DNA of 24,883 nt from a virus. Location: positions 1 to 24,883 of IMG/VR virus record IMGVR_UViG_3300042924_000357, one strand, 5' to 3'. The notes below the pieces were generated by a model. The model had not been told where the DNA came from. It did no database searches and saw only the letters and a program-made list of their open reading frames with translations. Positions 5,776-24,883 of this stretch are shown piece after piece. Within the stretch, counting starts at the first letter, position 1; the number at the start of each line of letters is the position of its first letter. The translations under genes and the position numbers were made by a program.

Positions 5776-6055
5776 ACAAATGCTAGAGCTAGTGCGCTAC
5801 TGCCCCTGTCAGATCTGTGGGGCACAGGATGGGACGGTAGTGGCCGCACACTCCAACCAACAACGCGATGGCAAGGGGATGGGCATCAAAGCCCACGACT
5901 ACCGTATCGCGGCATTGTGCTATGTGTGCCACATGAAGATAGACCAAGGCAAAGACATGACCAAATCGGCTAGGTTTGCGGCATGGGATGAGGCCCACCG
6001 AGGAACCATTGGCTGGCTATTCGAGCGGGGTCATCTCACATTACATTCGCCCTGA
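5762..6055 (+). CDS. DUF1364/YbcO-type HNH-like nuclease
   Basis: 97 aa. Cys-rich zinc-binding residues CPCQICG (Cys14, 16, 19) and CYVCH (Cys53, Cys56, His57) flank the core VVAAHSNQQRDGKGMGIKAHD, with His30 and the DYRIAALC strand. This arrangement is that of DUF1364 proteins such as YbcO of the cryptic lambdoid prophage DLP12, regarded as HNH-like nucleases of the lambdoid nin region where recombination genes cluster. Here it ends the rightward early operon, consistent with a DNA-processing role. The coding end overlaps the end of the convergent polyvalent gene by 20 bases (6036-6055). Activity has to be inferred. Confidence 0.8.
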   Translation: MYRNKQMLELVRYCPCQICGAQDGTVVAAHSNQQRDGKGMGIKAHDYRIAALCYVCHMKIDQGKDMTKSARFAAWDEAHRGTIGWLFERGHLTLHSP

Positions 6056-9000
6056 GTGTATTGATGTTGGCGGTCAAAGCATTCTGAGCTTGGTTGATTC
6101 TCAGAAGAGCCTCCCGCTTGGCATCAGCATCCATGTTAGAGCTACGGATCATGACTTGCATCTGCCGGAAATTTTTCATGGTCTTCTCTAAGTCAAGGAT
6201 GTAGTCCTTATTGGCAAGCAACTTGATGTTTTCTTGCATGAACTTGCCACGCTCTTCAAAGTTCATTGTGCGTTCAAGCAAGCTGGATGTCCGAACAACC
6301 TCGTCTGTAGCGTTCTTTAAATCGTAGTAGCCGGTGACCGTACCTCTGGCCTCTGGATCTAACGCAAAGCGTTTGATAAACGGCAACTGCTCAAAGCGTT
6401 TAGACGCATTAGGGTTCTCGGCATTCATGTTCATGATCCCGTCCAAGGCGCTGACCATGTACATACCCATCGTACCCGTGTAGCCACCGATCAGGTGATC
6501 GATCTTCATGGGCGACATGCCTAAGTTAGAGCCTGCAAAGGCGGCAAGCGATGAGGTTCCGGGGCCAATTTGGAACTCCGGGGCAACGCCTTCCAGACCT
6601 TGGCCAACAATAGGTCTACGTGTAAACAGGGAGAAGTTAGTCTCTGTCTCCACGAAAGGCTTGATGGCTTGCGGTAAGTAGTCAATGGCCAGTGTCGAAC
6701 GCAGATTCCTAGCCATGGAGTCCATAAAGTCTTTGCTTGTATCGTCCCCAAACAATGAAGCCATGATCCGCTCAGGGATCACCTTGAAGATGACACCAAT
6801 CTCAAACGGGATTGGGATCTTGATGCCCAAGGATGGAATAAGCCAGTTGTTATCTTTGGTTTCCTGTTCTTGTTTTTTATACTCTTCATCATCATGGGTC
6901 AGAGTCCAGTACATGGCCGACAGGGCAAACATGGTCATGCCGCGAACAATGAAGCGCTTTTGAATCATGGCTGCATCTTTGTTGTTCATCTCGCCAAACG
7001 ACGCTCTATAAAGCACATCCAGACCCTGCATGCGGGCGTTTAAGAACGGGATGGCCGCAGTCATGATGCGGATGATTGGAGAACTACCCTTGCGGTTAAA
7101 GTTCATCACCTCAAGCGCACGGTGCAGAGCTTCTGCCTCGTTGCCAGTTTCTTCAAGGGTGCGTTTATACACCTCAATCCTTGTCGCCATGTCAGACGCA
7201 GTCGTACCTTTTTCCAAGGCTTCCCACAGGGATGTGGGCGCAGTCATTGGGTTCAGGATACGTTGGAACAAGGTCTTACCTTCGTACTTCTTATTCAGTT
7301 CCTTTTCAAACGCCTTGGCGCTCATCTCAATGTTCTGAGAGAACTCGTAGCCGCCGCCGATACCAGCGTTTAAAAGCGCCTCAAACTCTGGGGATGTGCC
7401 TGCCATGGCCTTGCCAAAGTTTGAAATGGTATCTACGATGGGAGTCATCTTGACCCCGCTTGTTACGTATGCCGCCATTGAGTCACGAACCATGTTAGCC
7501 AACATGAAGCCGGGATCTTTGGTAACCATGTTCCTTAGGAAGTTGGCCGGGCCAGACAGCAAGCCGATGAACGGCAACTCTGGCATGTTTAAACTCTTAA
7601 CAGCGTCAATGAACAGGTGATCGGCCACCTGATACGTAACAACTTGGCCCTTTTCCAGTACCTGTACAGTGTCCAATCCTGTTGGGGCATTGGGACGTAA
7701 ACGCTCGGCCATCTCAATTTCCAAGGCTCGATCGATGGCACGTTGTGCCGCCACGTTCTTCATGCCCATCTGGATAGAAGACTGCGTGTTACGCACAATG
7801 GTTTCTAGGAAGTCGGCCAAAGGAGCTTTGTCTGTGCCCTCTGAGAGTTTCTTAGGCTTCTTGACACCTGAGATTGACTGGAAGATGTTGGGGCCGATAG
7901 TCTTCTCGCCTTCCATCTGACGATAGAACGGGATGTAATCGGAGAACTCAGTGAACCTAGCCTTGTCACCCTCGGATAGAACGCCAGTGTCTACAAGGTA
8001 CTGCACCAAGCCATTGTTAAACGTTGTCCATTCTTTTTGGATTTGATCAAACTCAGGGTGTTTTGCTTCCAAAGCCTCTGCTCGTTTTACATCATCTTCA
8101 GTAAAGATGTCTGGCTTGCCCTGTGCGTTTAAACGAGAGCCACGCTTTACGCCTGCCCAGAACTGGTAAAGCTGATAGATCAGAGGGTCGTTGTATTTAG
8201 ACAACGGGGCAAAGATAGCCACTGGCCCTTTGATCTTACCGCCATCGTTAAACGCTTTGGTCACGCCATTGACGTAGATGGGGATGCCGCCATTGCGGTC
8301 ATGCACACCCAAGACGGATGCAGTAACCCCTGCGGCTAAGTCAGACTGCAAGGCTCCAGCCTCTGCGCTTTCATCAGCCATCAAGGCCGCGCCACCGCGC
8401 TTCTTAACCACTTCCTTGTCTACGTCGGACAGTCGGTTGTAACGGTTTAAAGATCGAGCACGCAGTTCAGAGAAGGTGTCGCCACCCAATGCTTTAGTAA
8501 TGCGCTGAACGTAGCCCTGCTCTTCGCGGGCGGTTGTTGTTTCGTTTACACGGGCTAAAGTGTCTGGGTCGGTTGAGTCGCGCAGGCTGTAGCGCACATC
8601 AGAGTTGTACTTCGTATACGCATTAGTGTTGCCAATATCAGAAGCTTGTTGCAGACTTGCGCGTTCTGTTGATGGTGCTTCTGGTTTGGCTTTGGCTTCA
8701 GCTTTGGCCAGTTTAAACGGAAGCTGGTTAGGGACGACAACTGTATCGCCATCTGTTTTTGGGTCGTACTGAACAAAGAAACCCTCAGTCTTAACCGTGG
8801 CGTTTTTCTCGCTCATGTTGCCTGCTTTATTACGCAAGCCAACAATCACACCTTTACCACCTGAAGCTTCTTTAACAGCACTCTTCTCATCTAAGAAACG
8901 AGCATCGTAATCATCACCATCCAAGACTTGGAACTCCAACCCAGTTTCTGTATCAACCAAAAACCGTGGCAATCCGGACTTAGATGAGAAAGCCATGGCA

Positions 9001-12000
9001 ACGTTTTGCCCATTCTTTAAACGCTCACGCATTGTTGCCCAGTTGTGGTCATACTTACCAGACTTGTCTTTAAAGAACACCTTCTTATCACCAACAATCT
9101 GACCAAAGCCAGTAGATGAATATGTCAAGTGATGGTTGTCGGCAATAGATTCGCTACCTAGTTTTGTGTAGTCATAAAACATTACATCTGGATTGGACTC
9201 GATCAAACCACGGAACATGGTTGGCTTGAAGTCTGATGTAACGTTTAAACGAATAGCAGGAGCGTAAAGTTCTTTCTCAACGTTTAGACGTTTCTTAGTC
9301 TCTGGATCAACTTTGATTTGCGTGGGTGAGGCACACCACTTAGCCAGAGAATCAATCTCACCCTGCAACAAGGTAACAAAAGCTTCTGGATTAACAATCA
9401 GAGCTTCTGTTTTAAGGTACTGCATCATGCGTGCACCGGCACGGAATGCACTCTTCTCAATGTCACCTACGTCTTCTTGAGCCGCGCCGCCAAACATGAA
9501 GTTACCGCCTGACGTTTCGCCAAGGCACAAGCCTTCGCAGATGGCAGAGCGGGGGCATGTGTTGACCTTGTCTGTAATGTTTTGAGCAGAAGCCAGACCC
9601 AAGCCCTGTGAGGCTACGCTGTATCCGTCATAGGAGATGTTGTAGTCACCGATACGGGTCTTCTCTAGCTTGCCATTTTCAGTCAGCAGACTGCCGACGT
9701 TATGTTCTTTCTTTAACAGCTTACGGGCGGTAGAGACAAGCTTGCGACGTTCTGCCGGAGTGGCGGCTTTGTAATCGTTGACGGCTTTAGTAATGCGTTC
9801 TTCATGATCGCCGTAAGAAAACTCATCTGTGATGGCTTCACGGCGACTTTTTTGAATTGACTGTAGCTTCATCTTGTTGGCAAAGTAATCACCTTCTGCC
9901 AACGGAATAAAGAAATCTCTGCGGCCATTGTCATATTCTTCATCAACCTGAAGCTGATCAGGTGTAACGTAAACCAAGACAGTGCTACCGTCTAAATCTT
10001 GGTCAAAGTTACCACGGTTCTTTAAGATCGCATCACCACCAGACTCATTGGTTAAAAATATCAATGCGCGACCGTCAGACGGGATCATCCGGTTCTGTGC
10101 AATACGTAGAGCATTCTCTTTGGTAGTGTGATAATAAACAGTAACCGTTCCGTCCTTATTGATCGGCACGCCCAGCGTTGGATCAAAAGACAGATGCTTG
10201 TCAGGGTTGTAACTTTGTAAAGAATAACGTGGTGAATCCGTAGGCAGTTCATCTATAGGCTCAGACACATACGGCATGATGCCGTTTGCCTTTTCATAAG
10301 CCTTGGCCTGCTTCATTTCCGTCTGATACTCTTTAACGCTCAGGCGTTCAACCCCGCCTTGAGGTTGACCAGCCTTTAATTCCCCACGCTCAACTTGACC
10401 AAATATATCTTCATAAGTTTGGAACCCTGCGTTGTTAAAAGCATTACGTAGTGCTGTGAAGAAGTCCCTCATGCGCTTAAGTAATGCCGCCAACATGCCT
10501 GTCGGGGGTTTGTTATTAGCAAAATCAGCAAAGGCATCAGCAATAGCTTCTTCCGTTACCTTATCCATGTCACCGTTATACAAGTCAACATAGGCATCGT
10601 AGCGAGAGGTCTTCCTACCTTTGTAATCAGCAGTTGTATTCTTTAGGTACTTGGTGATCCACTGGTCTTTAGCCATGCGGGTCAGCGCAGTCCACTGCTG
10701 TGGCGTAAAGAAGTTGAGATCCTTCAGCGCGTGCAATGATTCATGGCGCAGAACCCGGACAGGATCTTTCTCGTTTAAAGCAATCTTAATTAGGCTCTCG
10801 TTGTAGGAGCCTTCTTGATCCATCTTCTCCAAGATGTTCAGTTTGACAGCGCCAAGGCCAAGCTTTTCTAAAACAGGCTTTAACTTAGCTTCAAGATCGG
10901 CCAAACGCTTTCTTGTCTCAGGCGAAATCTTGGCTTCCTCTGCTTTAGCTTTCGCAGCTTTAGCTTCTGTTTCAATGCCCTCCAGAACCTCAGACACAGG
11001 CTTCTGCTCGGCAAAGCGTTTAGCTTCAGCCGCTGTAGGAGCCTTAGGAGTTCTGCGTTCTAGTTCAGCCTGAGCCTTCTTACCCACCGCACGACGGCCT
11101 TGCTGTTGAGCCAACTCTTGCAATTGCTTGTCATCCATGTCGGCCAAGATGCTTTCTTCAGCCGCTTGACGGGATGGGTATGTGGCACGTGCCTGACCCT
11201 GTTCAAACACCGTGAAGCCCTTACGGCCAATTGCTTTGTTGGCGGTTGGCTTAATCTCTAAAGGCGTGATCTTGGGGTCAAGCTTTTGAATCTGTTCTGT
11301 GAGCGAGGCAATTTTTGCCTGCGTTTCTGCAACTAATTTAGCTTGCCGACCAGCCGCCTTTTGGAAGTTGGTTGACTGGCCTTCGCCTCTAGCTTCACTG
11401 CTATCTAAGCGTTTCTGACCAGCTTCAATAGCATTGTTTAACTGCTTAATTTGATTTTCAAAACGCAGTGCCATACCGGCACGAGTGCGCTCAGAGCTTG
11501 CCTTCTTGGCGTTTGCTTCGTCTATGGTGTCGGATTTAGACAACAGAGTGTCACCGGCATACAACTCATAACCTGCTGGAGCCTCACCCTCTTTAAACGC
11601 ACCTTCACGGATGTCAAATCCTTCGGGCAGCGTGGCGGAGGTGGTGGGGGCGGCGATAGCATCTGTTGTAATTTGCCTAACGTTTAAACCACGCTTGGCC
11701 GCCGCAGCGCGGGCAGCAGTCCTAGATGTGTAGGTAGACGGCAAAACATTGCCGCTCTTAGGATCATAGATCTCGTAGCGGGGTGTCTTGATCAGGTCAA
11801 CGTCACCATTCTTAATGGCGGCATCAAGGATAGCTCCCGCATGGGAGTCTTCTGTAAGGTTCGTGTATTCCTTGATAGTCTTGATGACCTCCTTAGGATC
11901 TACAGGAACACCCAGTTCTGCCAATAGGAAGTCAACTCCCTTGATGGCCTTGTCGTATTGCTTCTCATCGTAGCGGCTGGCGTTTGTGCCTTCCGGTAGG

Positions 12001-13622
12001 ATGGTTGAAGTTGTTGCTGCTGGCAGGCTGGCTAATGCTTTAAACGCAGCATGTAACTGCGGCTGCGACATCTGCTCCAGTGCGTTTACACCAGTTGTCC
12101 GGGTTAGGAAGTCCTTAAAGCCTTGAGTTTTGGTGTCAATTTTCTTTAGACCAGCTTGCTCTAGGATTTGGGTTGCGGTGTATTTCTCACCGGCATAACC
12201 AGACTTGGCGGTAATAAGCTGATCCAAGAGGGCTTGCTCTGCCTTGGGGTTCTGTCCCGGCATAGCATCCACAAAGTCCTCAAGCGAGTACTCCTTGAGC
12301 TTGGGAAGTCCAGCTTGCTTGCGGTAATCATCGATCTGCTTGTAGATGTCGAAGGGAACTTCGCTCTTACGGATGTTGCCTAAAGGATTCTTGAGCGGAT
12401 CGGTCTGTACTTCTTCAACGGGGATTTCCTCAGCCGGTGCAGGCAAAGCAATAGCCTGCTGTTGCTCCATTTGCTTTTGGATTTCGTCGGTCTGTTTCTG
12501 AAGAACAGCACGCTCGGCTTCTGCCTTTTGTGCCTCAGCTTGTACTTTTGCATCGGCTTCAGCCTGTTTCCTAGCTTGATCATCAGCTAATGATTGTTTG
12601 TATTGACGTTGCAAATTAGAGACTTGCAAAGGAGAAACGGCAAGGCCAAGGACTGAGCCAACTAAGGCATCATGAGCCACCGTACCGGCCAAGCCGTCAG
12701 TTAAATCTTTTGCTACACCAGCTTGATTCAAAGCGATGTTAGTACCAACTTGTCCTACCGCAGCTTGTGCCGCTTCAGGCAAAGCCTCACCTAGTGTAGA
12801 CGAGGCTACTGCACCAAGCTTCTGTTTAAACTGAGGTGGAGTTAATGATGCTGCGCCTTGGCCTGCGCCAACTTTTCTGGCCGCGTTTGCCAAAATATTT
12901 TCAATACCGAATATGCCTTCCAATGCGCCAGCACCGCCTGCAACGGCTTGTCGAGGAGCGTTTTGCAATGAATAAGCGGCAACCTCTTGGGCTTTCTGTT
13001 CTGCGACTTCTGGAGATTCACCTTGGCTTAACAAGGCCTGTTTAACGGCTTCATAATCTTGGCCCTTCTGACCGCCTACACCCATCAAACCACCAATACC
13101 GCCCGCTCCTCTTGCACCGGCCAGTGCTCTAGCACCTAGGCTTGCGCCTGCGGCCACCTGACCTCCGGGCAAAAATGCACCCGCAACAATTGGGGCGCTA
13201 GACGCTAATGCTTGTAATCCGGTTTGCAAGGGGGCTTCTGTAAAGCTACCCACTTTAGATTTGATGTCACCGCCTGAGCGCTCGATTAACTCTTGGCGAC
13301 GAGCCATTTCTTCTTTACGGGCTGGACTCATGCCTTCATAGGCAGATTGCTGTGCTTCCCCCAAATACTGAGAAGCCGCATTATCAACGCCAAAGATGTT
13401 AGTGAGAGACTGAAGGCCTCCCGCAAAACCTTGCTTAACCGAACGACCCACATCACCTAAGGTGCTAGGAGCACTCTTGGCTTCTTCTAGTTCTTTGGTT
13501 GTCTGTCCTGCAAATGGGTAATTCTGCAATACCAAACCATATATTTGCTGATCAGTAGCGCCTTCTGGGGCGTTTACACGATACTTATTTCCATCTGGTG
13601 CGGTGTATTGATAAATTGCCAT
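6036..13622 (-). CDS. Giant polyvalent virion/ejection protein (metallopeptidase, ART-like, GP88-like, LPD38-like)
   Basis: 2528 aa; last gene of the leftward block, starting 3 bases after the previous stop. Order by residue: 1-40, an N-terminal phage motif (MAIYQYTAPDGNKYRVNAPE); 110-330, Gly/Ala-rich hydrophobic helices likely to meet membrane; 340-395 and 725-930, charged coiled coils; 890-1080, a zincin-like metallopeptidase with HESLH at 960-964 and a downstream EEAIADAFADF at about 1024-1034; 1150-1245, an ADP-ribosyltransferase-like stretch (VYYHTT, IFLTNES, RRDFFIPL); 1300-1630, a Cys-cluster domain (CPRSAICEGLCLG, IRLNVTSDF, MFYDYTK) resembling phage GP88; about 1680-2528, a long helical part resembling LPD38, with one hydrophobic segment near 2215-2235. 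Known polyvalent proteins combine such domains and are injected with phage DNA. Domain identities other than the HExxH site are family resemblance judged by eye. Confidence 0.85.
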   Translation of the reverse strand: MAIYQYTAPDGNKYRVNAPEGATDQQIYGLVLQNYPFAGQTTKELEEAKSAPSTLGDVGRSVKQGFAGGLQSLTNIFGVDNAASQYLGEAQQSAYEGMSPARKEEMARRQELIERSGGDIKSKVGSFTEAPLQTGLQALASSAPIVAGAFLPGGQVAAGASLGARALAGARGAGGIGGLMGVGGQKGQDYEAVKQALLSQGESPEVAEQKAQEVAAYSLQNAPRQAVAGGAGALEGIFGIENILANAARKVGAGQGAASLTPPQFKQKLGAVASSTLGEALPEAAQAAVGQVGTNIALNQAGVAKDLTDGLAGTVAHDALVGSVLGLAVSPLQVSNLQRQYKQSLADDQARKQAEADAKVQAEAQKAEAERAVLQKQTDEIQKQMEQQQAIALPAPAEEIPVEEVQTDPLKNPLGNIRKSEVPFDIYKQIDDYRKQAGLPKLKEYSLEDFVDAMPGQNPKAEQALLDQLITAKSGYAGEKYTATQILEQAGLKKIDTKTQGFKDFLTRTTGVNALEQMSQPQLHAAFKALASLPAATTSTILPEGTNASRYDEKQYDKAIKGVDFLLAELGVPVDPKEVIKTIKEYTNLTEDSHAGAILDAAIKNGDVDLIKTPRYEIYDPKSGNVLPSTYTSRTAARAAAAKRGLNVRQITTDAIAAPTTSATLPEGFDIREGAFKEGEAPAGYELYAGDTLLSKSDTIDEANAKKASSERTRAGMALRFENQIKQLNNAIEAGQKRLDSSEARGEGQSTNFQKAAGRQAKLVAETQAKIASLTEQIQKLDPKITPLEIKPTANKAIGRKGFTVFEQGQARATYPSRQAAEESILADMDDKQLQELAQQQGRRAVGKKAQAELERRTPKAPTAAEAKRFAEQKPVSEVLEGIETEAKAAKAKAEEAKISPETRKRLADLEAKLKPVLEKLGLGAVKLNILEKMDQEGSYNESLIKIALNEKDPVRVLRHESLHALKDLNFFTPQQWTALTRMAKDQWITKYLKNTTADYKGRKTSRYDAYVDLYNGDMDKVTEEAIADAFADFANNKPPTGMLAALLKRMRDFFTALRNAFNNAGFQTYEDIFGQVERGELKAGQPQGGVERLSVKEYQTEMKQAKAYEKANGIMPYVSEPIDELPTDSPRYSLQSYNPDKHLSFDPTLGVPINKDGTVTVYYHTTKENALRIAQNRMIPSDGRALIFLTNESGGDAILKNRGNFDQDLDGSTVLVYVTPDQLQVDEEYDNGRRDFFIPLAEGDYFANKMKLQSIQKSRREAITDEFSYGDHEERITKAVNDYKAATPAERRKLVSTARKLLKKEHNVGSLLTENGKLEKTRIGDYNISYDGYSVASQGLGLASAQNITDKVNTCPRSAICEGLCLGETSGGNFMFGGAAQEDVGDIEKSAFRAGARMMQYLKTEALIVNPEAFVTLLQGEIDSLAKWCASPTQIKVDPETKKRLNVEKELYAPAIRLNVTSDFKPTMFRGLIESNPDVMFYDYTKLGSESIADNHHLTYSSTGFGQIVGDKKVFFKDKSGKYDHNWATMRERLKNGQNVAMAFSSKSGLPRFLVDTETGLEFQVLDGDDYDARFLDEKSAVKEASGGKGVIVGLRNKAGNMSEKNATVKTEGFFVQYDPKTDGDTVVVPNQLPFKLAKAEAKAKPEAPSTERASLQQASDIGNTNAYTKYNSDVRYSLRDSTDPDTLARVNETTTAREEQGYVQRITKALGGDTFSELRARSLNRYNRLSDVDKEVVKKRGGAALMADESAEAGALQSDLAAGVTASVLGVHDRNGGIPIYVNGVTKAFNDGGKIKGPVAIFAPLSKYNDPLIYQLYQFWAGVKRGSRLNAQGKPDIFTEDDVKRAEALEAKHPEFDQIQKEWTTFNNGLVQYLVDTGVLSEGDKARFTEFSDYIPFYRQMEGEKTIGPNIFQSISGVKKPKKLSEGTDKAPLADFLETIVRNTQSSIQMGMKNVAAQRAIDRALEIEMAERLRPNAPTGLDTVQVLEKGQVVTYQVADHLFIDAVKSLNMPELPFIGLLSGPANFLRNMVTKDPGFMLANMVRDSMAAYVTSGVKMTPIVDTISNFGKAMAGTSPEFEALLNAGIGGGYEFSQNIEMSAKAFEKELNKKYEGKTLFQRILNPMTAPTSLWEALEKGTTASDMATRIEVYKRTLEETGNEAEALHRALEVMNFNRKGSSPIIRIMTAAIPFLNARMQGLDVLYRASFGEMNNKDAAMIQKRFIVRGMTMFALSAMYWTLTHDDEEYKKQEQETKDNNWLIPSLGIKIPIPFEIGVIFKVIPERIMASLFGDDTSKDFMDSMARNLRSTLAIDYLPQAIKPFVETETNFSLFTRRPIVGQGLEGVAPEFQIGPGTSSLAAFAGSNLGMSPMKIDHLIGGYTGTMGMYMVSALDGIMNMNAENPNASKRFEQLPFIKRFALDPEARGTVTGYYDLKNATDEVVRTSSLLERTMNFEERGKFMQENIKLLANKDYILDLEKTMKNFRQMQVMIRSSNMDADAKREALLRINQAQNALTANINTLRANVM

Positions 13623-15383: not shown

Positions 15384-16292
15384 TTAGGTCAAATTAAATT
15401 TCTTGAGGGAGTCCATGATGGAACCCATACCGCCAACGGAAGACACTAACGAGCCTAAACCGCTCATCTGGGCTGGTGTAGAGCTAACTGTGGAAATAGG
15501 CAGACCTTGAAGCATGGACTGCAAGTACTGCGTCTTCTTCATTGGATCATCACGTTGTGCGAGGAATTCGTTGTAGTCTGCGCTAATGCCTTGTTGCTCA
15601 ATGCCACGCTGTTGACCGCCTGCCTCAGACATCATGTCAGCCAAAGTCTTGGCTTGGGCTTGCTCAGTATTAAACTGGCCCATGGCTTTGTCGTACGCAC
15701 TTGCGTACCCTGTACCAATAGCTTTGTTCTGCTCTTGGAGCAGATTGCGGTTAGCCTCAGACTCCATGATGGCCTGACGGCCACCGCCATAACCACCGGA
15801 TTGGGTCATCTTGGCTAGGCCGGGCTGAAGGTTGATCTCTGACTGGCGACGTAGTTCTTCCAACTGAGGCTGGAGGACGGACTGCAAGTATGGGTTCATA
15901 TACTGCGAGGCAACGCCAGTTTGGCCGCTAGATTGGCCGCCCATGGGAGCGCCCATACCGCCCATAGGAGCGCCAGCACCTGTCCCAATAGGTTGAGTGT
16001 TATAGATACCGGGAGACATAGCAGGAGGTTGGTACGCACCTGTAGAGCTAAAAGACTGACCAAGCTGGCCGGGGAAGGCCAGATTACCCAAACCTTGGAA
16101 TACTTTGGATTGCAGGCCAGACTCACCCGCAGTCTGTGGGCCACCGTACACAGCATAAGGCTGCTCTGAAATAGCTTGGGCTTTGCCAAGCATATCCGTT
16201 ACATACGGGCCTGCCCACTCAGAAAGAGTCTGTTGATTAGACCCGCCTGTTGAGGGCATGGAGAAAGAAGAAGCTGGTGTAGGAGCGGCCAT
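15384..16292 (-). CDS. Conserved phage virion-associated protein
   Basis: 302 aa. Low-complexity Gly/Met/Pro-rich first third (MGGMGAPMGGQSSGQTG around residues 109-125), then a conserved-looking helical core (SQYMNPYLQSVLQPQLEELR, GGYGGGRQAIMESEANRN, AIGTGYASAYDKAMGQF) and a Gly/Ser-rich tail. This core occurs in structural modules of many podo- and siphovirus-like genomes, without a proven role. The start codon is preceded by TAAGG and then a GTTTAAAC palindrome (16293-16300) that fills the space between the ribosome site and ATG. The 9-base gap to the upstream gene indicates co-translation. Confidence 0.75.
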   Translation of the reverse strand: MAAPTPASSFSMPSTGGSNQQTLSEWAGPYVTDMLGKAQAISEQPYAVYGGPQTAGESGLQSKVFQGLGNLAFPGQLGQSFSSTGAYQPPAMSPGIYNTQPIGTGAGAPMGGMGAPMGGQSSGQTGVASQYMNPYLQSVLQPQLEELRRQSEINLQPGLAKMTQSGGYGGGRQAIMESEANRNLLQEQNKAIGTGYASAYDKAMGQFNTEQAQAKTLADMMSEAGGQQRGIEQQGISADYNEFLAQRDDPMKKTQYLQSMLQGLPISTVSSTPAQMSGLGSLVSSVGGMGSIMDSLKKFNLT

Positions 16293-16301
16293 GTTTAAAC
16301 C

Positions 16302-17261
16302 TTATGCTGGTAAATGTTTGTCAGCCTTGGAATTGGCTGCAACGTTTTTCAAAGTTTTGCCACGAGCTTTCTGGATGCGATCCATCATGGCATATAGTTT
16401 ACGTGCTCCTGCGTCTGTAGATCCATTACCGATCTCAGAAACAATACGGGCTGGAATGACAAACTCACCATCGGCCAGACGGGCTGGTTGGTTCTTCCCA
16501 ATCATCGCAGGGATGTCATCAGACACACCATCGCCCGGCCCTTTAAGGAGGCGACCGCCATCGGAGTAACTGCCCAAAGAACCTAGTCCACCCTGAGCCA
16601 TACCTCCTGCGGCATATTTATCTACAAATAAATTATCATTTGGAGAGGCTGGAGCGGCTGGCGCTACTGGAGCGGCTGGCGCTGCCGGGGCAGCAGCCTG
16701 AGGCGTGTAAACCATAGGGGAGAAGTAGGTCACACCACCTGAACCGGGGCGACGTGCAATGCCTGCGTTTGGCCCCATCGCAGCCTGATAACGAGACTGA
16801 ATATCCGCTACCGGAGCCTTGGTGATTTCAGAAATACGCTGAGGAGAAACGCCGTATTCGTTCATTGAACGAGCAATCATGGCATCGTTTAAACCGGGTC
16901 GCTTTAGATAATCCATGACTTCGGTGTCGGATGGTTTGTAACCCATACCAACCGTGCTTACAGGAGCGGCGTACTGCGTGCGTGAAGCTGTGTACTTTGG
17001 TATGCTTCCTTGATAGCCCTTGAAGCCACCACCCCCACCACCACCGCCAATAGAATTAAGTAAAGCGCCAATGCCGCCAAGACTGGCTAACTGTGCAGTT
17101 GTTCCAGACTTACCAGACAGGATGCCTTTAATGGAATCTAAGATGCCCGGATCGTAATTGATGCTAGACAGGATGTCGGCATTGGACGGAGATGAGCCTA
17201 AATCATTGTAGGCAAACGCATCGTTCCTAGGATCCGCAAAAAAATCGTATTCTTCACCCAT
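16302..17261 (-). CDS. Virion protein with C-terminal DGVSDxIPA motif region
   Basis: 319 aa; start one base after the previous stop, with AGAGG upstream. Features: a Gly run (GGGGGGGF, about residues 73-80); a helical module at about 106-162 (EVMDYLKRPGLNDAMIARSM, NEYGVSPQRISEI, VADIQSRYQAAMG) that resembles the modules of the next-upstream 1978-aa protein; an Ala/Pro-rich linker (AAPAAPAAPVAPAAPASP); and a C-terminal part with GGRLLKGPGDGVSDDIPAMI, ARLADGEFVIPARIVSEIG and GARKLYAMMDRIQ. The last pattern is widespread in phage tail-associated proteins. It is probably a minor tail or ejection component; the exact role is unknown. Confidence 0.8.
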   Translation of the reverse strand: MGEEYDFFADPRNDAFAYNDLGSSPSNADILSSINYDPGILDSIKGILSGKSGTTAQLASLGGIGALLNSIGGGGGGGGFKGYQGSIPKYTASRTQYAAPVSTVGMGYKPSDTEVMDYLKRPGLNDAMIARSMNEYGVSPQRISEITKAPVADIQSRYQAAMGPNAGIARRPGSGGVTYFSPMVYTPQAAAPAAPAAPVAPAAPASPNDNLFVDKYAAGGMAQGGLGSLGSYSDGGRLLKGPGDGVSDDIPAMIGKNQPARLADGEFVIPARIVSEIGNGSTDAGARKLYAMMDRIQKARGKTLKNVAANSKADKHLPA

Positions 17262-17262
17262 A

Positions 17263-20200
17263 TTAGCCTCTTGCTTGAATAATTTGCATTAACTCTTCTT
17301 GCGTCATATTGTTGTCGCCTGAAGACATGATTTGTTGAAGTAACGCAGATATGTCATTTTCGCCGCCTTTTGCTTCTTGTGCAACAGGCATTGCTTGCGG
17401 TGCTTGTTCTGCGCCTGCCTTGGTAACACTTAACTCATGGTACGGAGACATCATCAAATCGCCCGTCGGGGCAACTTGCTGTTTCTGACCACCAAAGTCC
17501 TTGCCGTAATAGAACACACTTGCCAGCGGAGCAACCATAGACTCGCCTCCACCGCCGCTTTGTGGCATCTGCGGTTGCGTTGGTGTGCCCGTCTTCTTGG
17601 GCGGTGTCTTGGTTGGCGGTGTAGTTGTTGTAGGAACTGGCGTAACCGTCGGCGTAACTACTGGCGGTGTCGTTAGAGGTGTTGATGTCAACACATCTGG
17701 TGGCGTGTAAACGCCGGGAATCGTTACATCCCCAACTGTAATTGCGTCAGGCGTAGAAACATTAACGTCTGTTTTAACGGTCGGAGTTGTATCCACCGTT
17801 GGGTTAGTTGTAACCGTGGGATTAGTTGTGACTGTCGGGTTGGTCGTCACCGTAGGATTGGTGGTGACGGTTGGGTTGGTATTTACAGTCGGATTTGTAG
17901 TAACCGCAGCATTGGTTGTTACGGTTGGGTTAGTAGTGACCGCAGGATTGGTCGTAACCGCTGCATTGGTAGTTGCATCAGTTGCAGTATCCGTGGCTGT
18001 ATTCGTGGCTGCGTTGGTAGCGGCATTGGTATCAACCGCTGTATTTGTAACCGTATTGGCTGCTGTGTTGGTTGCAGCGTTTGTGTTTGCAGCCGTGGTT
18101 GTGGCAGTAGCTGTATCAGTTGCAGTGTCTGTGGCTGTATTAGTTGTAACCTTAGCTGCTGTCAAAGCGTTTAAAGCAGCCTGAGCCGCAGCTTTGGCAT
18201 CAGCAGCAGCCTTTGCATCAGCCGCAGTTTTTGCAGCAGCAGCAGCGTCAGCGGCAACTTGCGCGTCAATCTCAGCTTGGGCTATAGCAGCGGCCTGTGC
18301 ATCTGAAGCAGCTTTTGCAGCAGCAACGGTCTGAGCGGCAGCCGCATCAGCAGCCGCTTGAGCATCGGCAGCAGTCTGAGCGTCAATTACAGCCTGAGCA
18401 TCGGCAGCAGCCTTTGCAGCGGCAGCGGCAGCAGCCGCATCGGCGGCGGCTTTAGCATCAGCGGCAGATTTTGCGGCAGCAGCGGCGGCGGCAGCGGCAG
18501 CGGCCTCAGCAGCGGCTTTGGTAGCGGCATCCGCACTAGCAGCAGCGGCAGCAGCGGCCTCGGCAGCAGCCGTGGCGGCGGCGGCATCAGCCGCAGCTTG
18601 ATCGGCAGCAAGTTTAGCGGCAGCGTCAGCCTTTGCTTGAACTTCAGCCGCAAGAGCGGCATCGGCGGCAATCTTGGCATCAAGAGCAGCTTTTGCTTCA
18701 GCCTTAGCTTTAGCTTCAGCAGCGGCTGCGACTTGTGCTTCAATTGCAGCTTTCGTATCAGCGGCCAGTTGTGCAGCGGCAGCATCTGCTTTAGCTTTAG
18801 CATCAATGAGGGCTTGTGCATCGGCAGCCGCTTTGACTTCAGCCGCTATTTCAGCGTCAGTCTTTCCTTTAACTTTAACGTCAGCAGCCTTGGCCACGCT
18901 GTCAGCAGTAACTTTAGAACTCATAGCTGCAACCACATCGCCAATATCTACACCAGCCGCATCCATGGCAGTCACAATGTCAGCTTGTGAAGCATCAGGA
19001 TTGGCTGCAAGCCAGCCGTTAATTGCGTCATACACTTGCTGTTGGCTTGTATTATTAGCCGCTGCATACTGCATTGCTGGGCTAAGATCTATGTTTGATG
19101 TGTCTATCAAGCCAGCATTAGTTAAAGTACTTGTTACATCCTCTGGAGCAACAAAAATATTAGTTTTGGAATCAACCAAGGAACTAATGTTATTACTACC
19201 GTCAAAAGACTTTAGGCCTGCATCGTTTAGCTCTTGTGTAAACGTTTGCTGTACATCCGAAACCGAGTTGGACAGATTAGAGGCGGCATCAATACTTCCG
19301 GTTGTTTTGCCAGCGACAAAGCCACCAACGACACCTTGAGTCAAAGCCTTGTTTAAATCAACCTTGCCGGTCAGGGCGTAATCGGTAATTGCAGAAGTTA
19401 AAAACTCTTCGCCAAACTCAGATCCACCTTCTTTGGCAATGCCAGTTGCACTCTTAGTTGCGGCTTTTTCAACAGACTTAGTGATCTTGTTGATGACCGC
19501 AGTATCCACAATACCGGCTGTAGCCACAGTAACTGCACTGGCAATATAAAACGCAGACATGCCTTCAGCATCTGCTTGAGCGGGTGTTTTGCCTGCTTTA
19601 ATGGCATCACGATACTTGTCGTTGTACGCTGCGCCGCCAGACTCAATGGCGTTTAAACCCATATCTAAGCCAACTGCGCCTAGTTTTCCAAGCAAGCTAA
19701 CCGATTTGAGTGCCAAGCCCATGGGCAAAGCTTCTTGCAATACTTCAATCGCTGCCATGTTAATAGACAGAGGATTTTCGTAAATGGCTTTTGCGCCAGC
19801 AATAATTTTTGCGCCTAGGCCTTCTGCATTGTTAACAGCATTGATAACGTTGGCGTTGGCTTGATTTACCGATTCCAACTGCAAGGATTCGCCAGTACGG
19901 GTCATGGATTGACCGGCATTGGTTAAGGTGTTGTTTGCGCCTGTTAAGCCTACCGCTGCCGCACTACCGCCCACAAAATCAAGCGTTTGACCAGCCGCTT
20001 GCTGTATGTTGGACAAACCTTGGATCACAACATTGGCAGCCGTGCCTTTTCCAAAGACGCTTTCTATTGCAGCCTTTGCTGTAGCGGCTTTTTGCTCGGC
20101 ATTGGCAAGATCTAATGCTTCATTTTGGGCCAGTAGTTTTCTTGTTTCAGAAGCGTATTCATTTGGCCCACTGCCTATGATCCTTGCCAGCGTGTCGTTC

Positions 20201-23199
20201 TGTGCCGCAACAGTGCTAGATGCGTCAGTTTTGGTAGAAAGATTAGATGCGTTTAAAGCAGCAATTGCTTTGTCTGCTGCGGTGATGTTTAAGTCAGGAC
20301 GTTCTGCTGCCGTGGCATTGACAAAACTTTCAGTCTTGCCGGTTGCAGGGTTAAACCAATCAAATTTGGTTCCGGGTGGTAAATCTTTGCGTGCCAAAGC
20401 AAATGCTTCGTTAAACGACGCAGAGTTTTTAATATCGTCTTTAGTGGCTGCTATTTTGGCTTCGTTTAAAGCACTGGTAACTTGTGCATTGGACGTGCCC
20501 ATGGTGTAAGTATTGCCACCAAAGGTAAAGGTCGTTCCGGTTGGGTTGCGTAGTTTAGCTAAATAGGCTGCTTCATCAAGGTTGTCTGCTTCTGCGTTGC
20601 CAATAACAGTATTATTTGCTTTGGCGTTAGCCGCAATTTGAGCGTCAATACCGGCAAACTCACCACCGGCTAGATTAGCGGCTGTAGTGGCGGCACGATT
20701 GTCAGCCGCAACAATCCTTTCTAAATCAGTAATTGTTGCAGCGGCGTTATTGTTGTCAAGGGTGTACGTACCACCACCAAACGTAAATTTATTCAACCCT
20801 GCATTTTGAGCAGCGGTAGCGGCGGCATTGATGTCGCTTGCCCCAGAACCATCAAACGTTAAAGACTGGTTAATTTGATTGGAAATCTGAGTGTCGGTAT
20901 CGTCGGCAAGGTTAAAGTCTGCAAACGATGCTGCGCCTGAATTATTAACTAATCCAGACTTTTGCAACTGAGTTGTAATGTCTTTATTTCCACCTGTTAC
21001 ATCATTTACAGCGGCATTGCCAGCAGCAATGGCTGTACTAATAGCTATCTTGTCTAACGTCTGACCTGATAACGCACCTGTTACAGCTTGAGCAACAAGG
21101 TTTTTATTGGCGTTAGATAGGTCTGCAAAGCCCTCAATATTACCCAGAACCGCATCTACAGCACCGCTTGTTCCGCCTGAAGCCGCACCTGCAAGTACCG
21201 CGTCACCAATGTCTTTACCCGTTAATGCTGCCGTAACCCCTGCTGTTGTAGCTTTATTAAAAGAGTTGGTTAGAGTTTTGGTTAGGTCAGCCGACAGGCC
21301 AAGATCTTTAATAAAAGATGAGCCATCTTTCATAAAGTCCATGCCGGGAATTTGTGCCCCTACATAACTTACTGCGGCATTCTTAATTGCGTCACCAATG
21401 TCGTTGCCGCTTAAAACGCTTATTGCCATGTTGGCCGCAATTTGTTGCGGTAAAGACAAACCACCCGTAGCAATAGCAAGACCAATTTGAGCAATTGGCC
21501 CTAGATCCTGCATTAAGATTGCAAGATCATTAGATGTTGCCGCCGTGGTATAAAAAATAGGATTGCCTTGTGCATCAAATTGCACGTTGTAGCCGGTGTT
21601 TCCTTTGCCTTCAAACGTGCCGCCAAAAGCATTGCCTTTTTGACGTTCACCATATGTAGTGGCAACTTCTTGCCCAGTTAGCTTATTACCAAATACTTCT
21701 TGTTTACCTACAGGAGCCGTGTAAACAAGCTCTGAAGTACCTGAATCTCCGCCACTAAAGACTGTTTCTGACTTAACCAAACTAGGATCAATGGCGTTTC
21801 CATTTTGATCTACGTAACCAATAATTTTTTGTGAATAATATTGTTGACCTTCATTATCAGTTACCAAGTCACCCTGCCCGTATACAGGCTGTACAGCGGC
21901 ATCAACAGTTTTAGTAACCTTGCCAAACTGGTTAATGTCGGTAGCGCCAGTATCAGCAATGATTTTGGCCATATCCCTTGCATTAGCTTCAGCGGAACCT
22001 TTGCCCTCACCTTTCCACTTACTAGTCACGCCTTGGGCTAAGATTTGCTGCGTAATTTTTTCTATGGCAGCCGCTTTGTCCATTGGCGCAGCGGTTTGAG
22101 TTGCAGCAGCTTGGGTTGTTGCTGCTGGTAACGATGCAATACCTGCGGGTTGAGCAACAGCGGCAGGCGCAGCGGGCAAACTACTGTAAGCAGCATTAAC
22201 TTGAGCGGCACTAATTCCCATCCCCGCCGCTGCTGCTGTAATGTCAGCTTTACTGGCGTTAGGATCATTTTTAAGCGCATCAACCAATGCTTGGTTAACT
22301 TCTGCCTGCGTATATGTTTTAGTGGCGGCTGGTAAAGAAGCAATACCAGCGGTAGTTGCTTTAGCTGCTGCGTCGGCCTGCGCCTTAGCAGCGGCATCCG
22401 CTTGTGCTTTAGCCTGTGCATCTGTTTGGGCTTTGGCCGCAGCCGCTTGAGCGTCAGCTTTAGCCTTAGCTTGAGCATCTGCCTGAGCTTTAGCTTGGGC
22501 ATCTGCTTGTGCTTTGGCTTGAATTTCAGCTTGCACTTTCGCGGCAGCATCGGCCCTTGCTTTTGCTTCCGCATCAGCAGCAGCTTTGGCTTTGGCTTCA
22601 GCTTGTGCTTTAGCCGCTGCATCTGCCTGAGCTTTTGCGGCAGCGTCTGCTTGTGCTTTGGCATCGGCCTGAGCCTTAGCATCAGCAGCAGCTTTAGCTT
22701 GCGCCGCAGCCTCTGCTTTGGCTTTATCCGCAGCAGCTTGAGCAGCAGCCGCAGCTTCGGCAGCACGTTGAGCGGCAGCCTGTTGTGCAGCGGTTCTAGC
22801 GGCAGCTTCACGTGCGGCAGCCTCAGCAGCAGCTTTATCGGCAGCAGCTTGTGCGGCAGCGGCTACACGGGCAGCTTCGGCAGCGGCAGCTTGTTGGGCT
22901 GCTTGCTCCCGAACAGCAGCTTCGTTAGCGGCTTGCAATGCAGCAGCGTCGGCAGCACTTTGGCCAGCACCGGGAGCCTGAACTCCAGCACTACCAAAGT
23001 AATTACTAATGTCAGAAACAGAAAAACCAGTGGCGCGGGACAGGTCTGCCATGGAAACACCATTGGCAGCGGCTGCGGCAGCAATGGCAGCAGGATTGCT
23101 TAAGTTGGCTTGAACATAAGCAAGGATGTCTGCATCCGATATGCCACCAGATGGTGCAGTATCTTCGTATTGTGTGCTGTATCTACCTTGAACTGCCAT
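17263..23199 (-). CDS. Giant Ala-rich fibrous virion protein, probable ejection or tape-measure-like protein
   Basis: 1978 aa from the ATG at 23199, chosen because GGAAGG lies seven bases upstream and TAATG couples it to the previous stop; an in-frame ATG five codons earlier has no such site. Order by residue: 21-70, helical module 1; 80-283, nearly pure Ala/Lys/Gln/Asp/Glu with AKAQADAQ-type eight-residue repeats, TolA-like; 295-340, module 2; 540-740, Gly/Ala-rich hydrophobic helices ([21 protein letters not shown]); 802 and 889, twin FTFGGxTYT strands; 1187-1305, a helical module shared with the polyvalent protein; 1376-1428, module 3; 1436-1678, a second Ala-rich helix; 1742-1807, TTNPTV hexapeptides; then a Thr/Pro-rich linker and a short conserved-looking end ([16 protein letters not shown]). 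No catalytic motif is seen. An extended, membrane-touching ejection or tail-interior protein is the best guess. Confidence 0.75.
17776..17973 (-). repeat. Tandem 18-bp repeats encoding TTNPTV hexapeptides
   Basis: Eleven in-frame 18-bp units code for TTNPTV or close variants ([24 protein letters not shown]). DNA units differ mainly at third codon positions, so amplification is not very recent or the protein repeat is under selection. It is followed upstream (17974-18165) by a looser Thr/Asn/Ala-rich stretch. The tract probably forms an extended, non-helical linker near the C-terminus of the giant protein. Confidence 0.9.
18165..18890 (-). repeat. Ala-rich GCN low-complexity tract
   Basis: About 240 codons dominated by Ala with Asp, Lys, Gln and Glu ([20 protein letters not shown] type) inside the giant protein. 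On DNA it is a run of degenerate GCN triplets. It should form one long helix. It also generates long antisense open frames that are not genes. Confidence 0.85.
22350..22960 (-). repeat. Ala-rich tract with eight-residue repeats
   Basis: About 200 codons of Ala/Lys/Gln/Asp/Glu. The clearest register is an eight-residue unit, AKAQADAQ, repeated with changes (24-bp DNA period). The composition resembles the periplasm-spanning helix of TolA. This is the second Ala-rich tract of the giant protein and lies near its N-terminus. Confidence 0.85.
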
Positions 23200-23546
23200 T
23201 ATCCAACCTTCCAATTCGTGCCATCAGAATATACAGGCACAGCGACTGCCCCACCAGTCGCAACGGTAGCCCCAAATGTTGGGCCTAAAGCATCTGTTAC
23301 AAAAGCTCTTGCGCCCTTGCCTGAAGTAACTGCGCTGGGTAGCGTAGCCACCGTGTAATTAGTCAAAGGAGGCACTACGCCAGAGGCCATCAACTGCGTA
23401 GTTAACGCATCAATCCTGTTGAAGTACAGACGCAAGATGTTTAACATCTGGTCAAAATACACACGGTCGTACTCACCCGGAGGAAGCGGCAAGTTAGGTG
23501 CTGCTACCTTGTTTAAATCAAAATCAGTGGTGACAATAAAGCTCAT
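23199..23546 (-). CDS. Small phage structural protein, hypothetical
   Basis: 115 aa, joined to the upstream tail gene by an ATGA overlap and to the giant protein by TAATG. The N-terminal part has [20 protein letters not shown] followed by YFNRIDAL, a pattern common at the start of small phage tail-associated proteins. The C-terminal part ([20 protein letters not shown], then [13 protein letters not shown]) looks like the short beta-rich domain found at the ends of phage tail fibre or receptor-side proteins. It probably belongs to the tail or tail-fibre assembly. Confidence 0.75.
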
Positions 23547-24883
23547 CGTCTGCCGTCCGGTCTGATGTCAATACGGGTAGCACCCAACTGCCATGTAGTT
23601 CCAAGGTTGGTAGAGCTTACCTTTAAGATAAGTTGACGGCCACGGACACGGGTGTTAATCTGCCCTGTAAATCCCTCAGTCACTGTGTACTGAGCGCCGG
23701 TTTGTTTAGTTACATTGCCTGTTACCGCCGTGCCAGTTCCAGAGCCTGAGTTCTGCAAGGGGTAGAGCGTGTAAACGACTTGTGGCGTAGGAGAAGCATC
23801 TGACCCTGAGAATGTTAAGTCAGGCAACATACGATATACAAAGCCAAATCTGTCGCCGTCATCAATGTCAAATTCTGAAGATGAGATGTAAGCCTCAATA
23901 CCTGCGGGCGTACCTGTCTCGTTATTGTCTAAGCCGTATTCTTGATCAACTAAGTTGTAGTTGTACGTAGCGGCAATAGGGAAGTCTCTTAAACCGGAGT
24001 CAAGCCATGCTGTTCGCTCCATAGTGCCGTAATACCAGATTTTTTCAAGATAGTTGTACACCACATAACGATTAGCAACCAAGCTGCCAGCCGCGCAGTA
24101 GAACCACCAGATCTCGTTAAAGCCTTCGTTAGTACCGGCAAACACTTGTTGGTTTTGCTGGAGGTTAATGTCTTGATATACGTACCTGCGGAGGTCGCAT
24201 GGCAGAGTCTGTAAGCGTCCATCGTACAGATAGAACTTATCAACGCCCATCCAGTACACCACACCAGAAGCTTGTGCTGCTGCGTTTTGACCAAGTATAG
24301 AAATGTTGTCACCCATTAACTGACTAGACCAAACCACTGGCGGGCCAATGTACTGTAAAGAATAGATGGCTGAGTCAGTCCAAACCAAGATCTCTTGGCG
24401 GGTTTGGATGGAAGTTATGATGCTTGAGCCGTGTGACAACTGCACGCTACCGGCTTGATTGGTTGCGGAGGGTGTCCAGTTAACCACAGACTCCTGATCC
24501 GACCAACGAATAAGCATAGGATTCTGTATGGTTGTGCCGTAGTCATTACAGCCAAACGCAAACACAAATCGGCTAATGTCAGACACAAAGATAAAGTTCT
24601 GGATAATTGGGCAGTCTGAAGCGCCCGACAAGCTTACGATGTTTACACCATTAGGCATGATGTAATGATCACCAGATTGCGTTCCTGTCGTGGTAATAGC
24701 CGCGCCGCCAACAGTGGCCGCTAAGTTAAAAGTATTACCACTAGAGTTAATGACGTAATAAATAGTTCCGGGGGACAAGCCAGTCGGCAACGCAGACGGA
24801 TAGCCGCTGTTAGTAAGGATGACTGGTGAACCATTTGGTAAGTTAAAAGCGGCAGTAACTACCGCAGGAGAAGCTATGGTGAC
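23543..24883 (-). CDS. gp10-like tail/portal-plug protein, beta-propeller type (partial)
   Basis: The frame is open across the right edge, so the N-terminus is missing; the visible part is 446 aa. A TTG at 24790 is not the true start, because the reading frame continues upstream with a fitting sequence (SPAVVTAAFNLPNGSPVILT). Repeated strand-rich units (FVFAFGCND, EILVWTDSAIYSLQYIG, GVVYWMGVDKFYLYDG, FNEIWWFYC, YVVYNYLEKIWYYG) suggest a beta-propeller, as in P22 gp10-like packaged-DNA stabilisation and other tail-hub proteins. The end ([18 protein letters not shown]) is beta-rich. It is the first visible gene of the leftward structural block and likely sits at the portal-tail junction. The family assignment is by pattern only. 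Confidence 0.6.
   Translation of the reverse strand, partial: VTIASPAVVTAAFNLPNGSPVILTNSGYPSALPTGLSPGTIYYVINSSGNTFNLAATVGGAAITTTGTQSGDHYIMPNGVNIVSLSGASDCPIIQNFIFVSDISRFVFAFGCNDYGTTIQNPMLIRWSDQESVVNWTPSATNQAGSVQLSHGSSIITSIQTRQEILVWTDSAIYSLQYIGPPVVWSSQLMGDNISILGQNAAAQASGVVYWMGVDKFYLYDGRLQTLPCDLRRYVYQDINLQQNQQVFAGTNEGFNEIWWFYCAAGSLVANRYVVYNYLEKIWYYGTMERTAWLDSGLRDFPIAATYNYNLVDQEYGLDNNETGTPAGIEAYISSSEFDIDDGDRFGFVYRMLPDLTFSGSDASPTPQVVYTLYPLQNSGSGTGTAVTGNVTKQTGAQYTVTEGFTGQINTRVRGRQLILKVSSTNLGTTWQLGATRIDIRPDGRR

Follow-up and report, generated by a model that had tools for sequence, protein, structure and literature searches.

The ejection proteins of podoviruses are among the closest described counterparts of the proteins considered here. 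Ejection proteins swap domains (PMC8954989), and five kinds of them are released by SU10, a phage whose portal and nozzle plan is related (PMC9509320). The stretch of DNA analyzed here (the window) is the entire IMG/VR virus record of a freshwater-type phage, 24,883 bases in length, and it encodes a giant protein and a 319-aa protein that are like the ejection proteins of P22 (gp7, gp16 and gp20), T7 (gp14–16) and SU10 in gene position, between nozzle-like and DNA ejection proteins. No sequence similarity was found between either protein and the ejection proteins of P22, T7 or SU10. Both carry copies of a small helical module, three in the giant protein (A, B and C) and one in the 319-aa protein (D), and the identity, spread and possible role of this module are the subject of this work.

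Gene block and carrier proteins

The minus strand of the window encodes, in order, a virion structural protein of 446 aa, a protein of 115 aa, the giant protein, the 319-aa protein, a DNA ejection protein of 302 aa and two further proteins of 582 and 2528 aa (Table 1), and the order from the phrog_3287 protein to the phrog_4287 ejection protein is kept in more than 10 loci. In gene position, the giant and 319-aa proteins match podovirus ejection proteins, being encoded within this nozzle-to-ejection block. Two Pfam domains, LPD38 (E 4e-31) and GP88 (E 1e-12), mark the 2528-aa protein (6036–13622, minus strand) as polyvalent-type.

The ATG at 23199, which overlaps the stop codon of the upstream ORF (TAATG), is the probable start codon of the giant protein. 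The linker between copies A and B is 55% alanine and a second Ala-rich coil follows copy C. These two stretches (residues 77–295, ~22330–22986, and residues 1437–1740, ~17995–18906) are 53–55% alanine, together with Lys/Asp/Gln or Thr, and likely form long helices. After the second of them, around residues 1740–1860, lies a Thr/Pro/Val/Asn-rich region of TTNPTV repeats.

Table 1 Features of the gene block and of the module copies, in window coordinates. Giant-protein residues follow the 1983-aa numbering from a TTG; the likely ATG start would lower each by 5.
Feature	Residues	Coordinates	Strand	Basis
Upstream 446-aa virion structural protein, putatively nozzle/hub-like		23543..24883	(-)	phrog_3287, E 9e-51
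Giant protein with copies A–C		17263..23199	(-)	ORF from likely ATG
Module copy A	giant 25–76 (N-terminus)	22987..23142	(-)	D-type profile 16.9 bits; family profile 51 bits
Module copy B	giant 301–345	22180..22314	(-)	weakest copy, three helices; family profile 12.9 bits
Module copy C	giant 1389–1436	18907..19050	(-)	first three helices only; family profile 44 bits
319-aa protein with copy D		16302..17261	(-)	ORF; 291 relatives in IMG/VR
Module copy D	319-aa protein 110–161	16779..16934	(-)	family profile 71 bits
Near-invariant C-terminal motif of 319-aa protein (GPGDGVSDDIPA...LADGEFVIPARIVSEIG)		16371..16571	(-)	alignment + tblastn
Downstream 302-aa DNA ejection protein		15384..16292	(-)	phrog_4287 'DNA ejection protein', E 2e-6

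Four copies of one module

An earlier note on this DNA had proposed that four segments of the two proteins are copies of a single helical module of ~50 residues. All four are present, a few residues off the positions given there, and score above every shuffle. A search with a profile built solely from relatives of copy D returned copy D at 100 bits; within the giant protein, the three highest-scoring stretches were copies A, C (12.4 bits) and B (9.7 bits). The best scores among shuffled versions of the giant protein were 5.9 bits for full shuffles (n = 500) and 1.3 bits for shuffles that keep local composition (n = 500), and the reversed giant protein gave no score above 0. With the family profile, the best shuffle reached 7.3 bits for the giant protein and 8.8 bits for the 319-aa protein.

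Taken alone, copy B has a poor E-value (0.012 against ~2000 sequences). The equivalent stretch is an unmistakable copy in four relatives (L006, L007, L008 and L012), and copy B is 28–36% identical to the copies found in the slot of copy C. That slot is also occupied in L007, L009–L011, L013, L088, L089, L097 and L189. The stretch before copy C (giant residues ~1378–1398) resembles helices 2–3 of a further module that enters the first helix of copy C.

Spread and exchange of the module in phages

A single-sequence search with copy D finds the N-termini of giant proteins of related phages (L012, E 7e-8; L023, E 3.5e-5). Iterated searching found 54 copies in a first set and, once further IMG/VR loci had been added, 197 copies, of which 148 are unique, spread over 126 ORFs. 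The carriers are otherwise unrelated proteins of ~600 to 2000 aa with one to three copies each; many copies begin directly after Met-Ala, and tandem copies are linked by Pro-rich stretches. Single modules found no convincing relatives among GenBank phages, where the low-complexity filter of BLAST probably hides Ala-rich copies. The sole GenBank phage found to carry the module is the metagenome-derived MW202710, which was reached only via another domain of the giant protein; its copy, in a 509-aa protein adjoining an SU10-type portal, is clear by profile (E 9e-20), BLAST masking low complexity. The module was not seen in the tail protein of EBPR siphovirus 2, and broad alignments gave no conserved stretch usable for contig scans.

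The earlier note had also called the module mobile, and this description holds on several counts. In the family of the 319-aa protein, alignment places the module between '...YxGYxGGIPxYTATR...' and '...RRPGSGGVTYFSPM...' in one set of loci (L002, L003, L006, L008–L016 and L038) and shows it to be cleanly lacking in another (L017, L019–L025, L027 and L044); read from these aligned sequences, it is an optional insert with sharp bounds. The N-terminal slot of the giant protein has been refilled as well. Between L188 and the window, the neighboring 446-aa proteins are 97% identical and the modules only 37–39%, and between L013 and L003 the reverse is seen, with modules 88% identical and neighbors only 70%. 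In the 114 pairs whose neighbors share 85% identity or more, the modules are anywhere from 29 to 100% identical (median 50%).

Copy D is followed by the C-terminal motif of the 319-aa protein. The motif also occurs at the tape-measure C-termini of a Caulobacter phage and DSL-LC04 (tblastn, E 1e-4), and L085, L153 and L157 carry it as a fusion with the DNA ejection protein. A motif resembling that of the 319-aa protein ('GE') comes directly after the tandem module copies of tape-measure proteins. Because of gene position, the fusion of the motif to the ejection protein and the parallel with tape-measure proteins, most phage carriers probably belong to the DNA-delivery machinery. Over its last ~110 residues the 319-aa protein hardly varies among its IMG/VR relatives, and this end is similar to the 'GEFV/GEYV' motif at the C-terminus of tape-measure proteins. 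A separate proposal, that the C-terminal region of L105-type proteins is akin to the 302-aa ejection protein, was rejected (hhalign profile alignment probability 0.6%).

Carriers in one Burkholderiales lineage

The module had been thought unique to this virion group, a view that cannot be kept, since copies are present in Burkholderiales prophage tape-measure proteins, in TPS-secreted adhesins and in host proteins of ~250 aa. Among Burkholderiales genomes, 12 of 399 gave matches, several of them weak. Within one family of the order, the module is found in 31 of 125 genomes (21 of the 61 in one of its genera), and in a phylum-wide set of 398 the seed genome was the only match.

The prophage tape-measure proteins carry tandem copies at their end, as in L226 (Pfam TMP_3, PF20155, E 3.5e-25; phrog_2335, E 3.7e-53), where two copies directly precede the C-terminal 'GLAMVHRAEAIVPSS' motif. 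In the TPS-secreted adhesins the module lies close to the C-terminus; they are represented by L138, assigned by Pfam (PF05860, E 7e-34), and by L237 and the partial relatives L137, L233 and L235, assigned by the similarity of their ends. In the filamentous-hemagglutinin-like adhesins at L138:2367–8378 and L237:2122–8298, one clear module is followed by a degenerate half-copy. The third kind of carrier is a family of ~250-aa proteins of one Burkholderiales family, which have an A-type module at the N-terminus, show no obvious signal peptide and are chromosomal in the two loci that were read. Members of this family (L227:8124–8873, L229:7785–8534 and L218–L225) combine the module with a further conserved region, and L224 has two such genes close together. 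The module proteins of L239 and L240 appear, by eye, to have an extracellular domain.

Predicted fold and novelty

The consensus of the module is VTNADILGWLNANPNASDALIAAAMQEAGVSPAQVAAATGAPVADVQSRYQAA. Models were made for copies D and B, copy A standing within the alignment used for the D model and copy C within that used for the B model. The AF2 model of copy D (47 rows, mean pLDDT 91.6) has helices at 5–12, 19–29, 33–40 and 44–55, and that of copy B, built with C-slot rows only and no A or D rows, has helices at 10–23, 29–38 and 43–52 (pLDDT 74). The suggestion in the earlier note that a further helix is attached only in some copies agrees with these models: a fourth helix is present in the model of D and matched by the sequence of A, it is absent from the model of B, and the sequence of C matches only the first three helices.

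Foldseek searches with the module model gave no significant match in the PDB (E > 1), and the best-matching BFVD entries come from uncultured Caudovirales (TM 0.83, rmsd 1.7, E 0.1). With fold matches this weak (Z 6.3 at best against PDB chains), function is therefore not readable from the fold. No curated Pfam, PHROG or NCBIfam model describes the module or the module regions of its carriers, and a literature search found no description of it. The module is an undescribed domain, acidic by sequence and predicted to fold into a helix-turn-helix-like bundle, with three helices as its core and an optional fourth.

Two other resemblances were considered. The N-terminal domain of PEX14 is a peptide-docking domain, and its small helical bundle is similar to copy D (Z 4.9, rmsd 2.9, 52 residues); PEX14 is a eukaryotic peroxisomal protein with 12% identity to the module, and kinship is without support. 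The phi29 gp8.5 head fibre (PF11133/phrog_14753) shares a local similarity of ~48 residues (tblastn, E 0.008–0.06; E 1.6e-5 between phrog_14753 and one module member), strongest over the first two helices of the module. Kinship with this fibre, whose own feature is a trimeric helix-turn-helix supercoil, was rejected, the Pfam score being 13.7 bits against a cut-off of 24.6 and the family profile finding 3QC7 only at E 0.87.

Discussion

We consider it reasonably probable that the four segments are one mobile, previously undescribed domain whose most likely role is that of a protein–protein docking bead in ejection-type and tape-measure proteins. Mobility stands from the earlier proposal of a mobile docking domain unique to one virion group, uniqueness does not, and docking is plausible given the fold, the acidity and the bead-on-a-linker layout. 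How might such a bead work? Each module would be an independently folding acidic unit on flexible Ala-, Pro- or Thr-rich linkers, exchanged as a whole, and it would attach delivery proteins to a partner, either while the virion is assembled or while they are ejected through the envelope. On this reading, both carriers in the window would be packaged and ejected. The partner could in principle be another copy of the module. Copies A and D of the same phage are 30.8% identical, against 29.4% for A and D of different phages, which gives no hint that like docks with like; this idea was rejected, a correlation of A and D distances (r 0.69, n 11) being confounded by gene linkage and by a few divergent loci. 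The copies in secreted adhesins show that the role of the module is not confined to virions.

What, then, are the alternatives to docking between delivery proteins? The helix arrangement invites another reading, in which the module would bind DNA as a helix-turn-helix and so hold the packaged genome in place or mark ejected DNA. The helices modelled for D and B fit such a domain, and the PDB chains nearest to them are mostly helix-turn-helix proteins, but at Z ≤ 6.3 only: ParB/KorB has a similar layout of three to four short helices (Z 5.8–4.4; for copy D, Z 5.8, 57 residues, rmsd 3.3), as has Lrp/FapR (Z 5–6; for copy B and FapR/Lrp, Z 6.3, 52 residues, rmsd 2.3). Single copies also give weak Pfam matches (best, an HTH_AsnC-type model, E 0.00056; HTH_3, E 0.00082), and HTH_26 reaches 17.9 bits in a tape-measure carrier against a cut-off of 22. 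In a scan of 14 copies, however, no such Pfam model matched more than four, and matches at Z below 8 may reflect only a common helix arrangement. Unlike these basic domains, the module is acidic and is carried by virion and secreted proteins, among them adhesins. By sequence, net charge is negative in 125 of 127 copies (mean 2.0 basic against 5.1 acidic residues), and on this ground DNA binding was rejected and is held to be very improbable. A spacer or stalk with no specific partner, kept as an independently folding helical bead on linkers, is less remote and still unlikely. It would accommodate the wide variation in one slot (29–50% identity in the lower half of the close-relative pairs), the change in copy number from 1 to 3 and the Ala- and Pro-rich linkers around the module; it fits poorly with the loop and turn positions conserved across the family (N13-P14, ~90%; G29, 83%; T39-G40, 63–69%) and with the recurrence of the module at defined places, namely the extreme N-terminus of giant proteins and directly before the C-terminal motifs of tape-measure proteins.

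Slightly less doubtful than a spacer is the proposal that the module binds a component of the host envelope (periplasmic, membrane or cell-surface) of the Burkholderiales lineage, such that phage and host secreted proteins share one attachment unit. The strong lineage restriction described above points this way, as do the copies in TPS-secreted adhesins, in tape-measure proteins and in the seemingly extracellular proteins of L239 and L240, and rapid exchange in the slot of the giant protein would suit a variable partner. The lack of an obvious signal peptide in the ~250-aa host proteins argues against it, however, and the restriction could merely reflect local exchange of genes between phage and host. 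With the same reserve, one may picture the module as a lineage-specific docking currency, in which ejection-type, tape-measure and adhesin carriers in one Burkholderiales group would engage a common envelope partner and bead swaps would retune DNA delivery.

The module defines a small and newly recognized domain family in ejection-type and tape-measure proteins, the part of tailed phages that is understood least. It moves as a unit among phages with short tails, prophages whose tails have a tape-measure protein, and host exoproteins. Its distribution also links a group of phages seen almost exclusively in metagenomes to Burkholderiales as their likely hosts. Should a partner be found, the 319-aa protein, in which the copy is optional, would offer a natural comparison of the same protein with and without the module.
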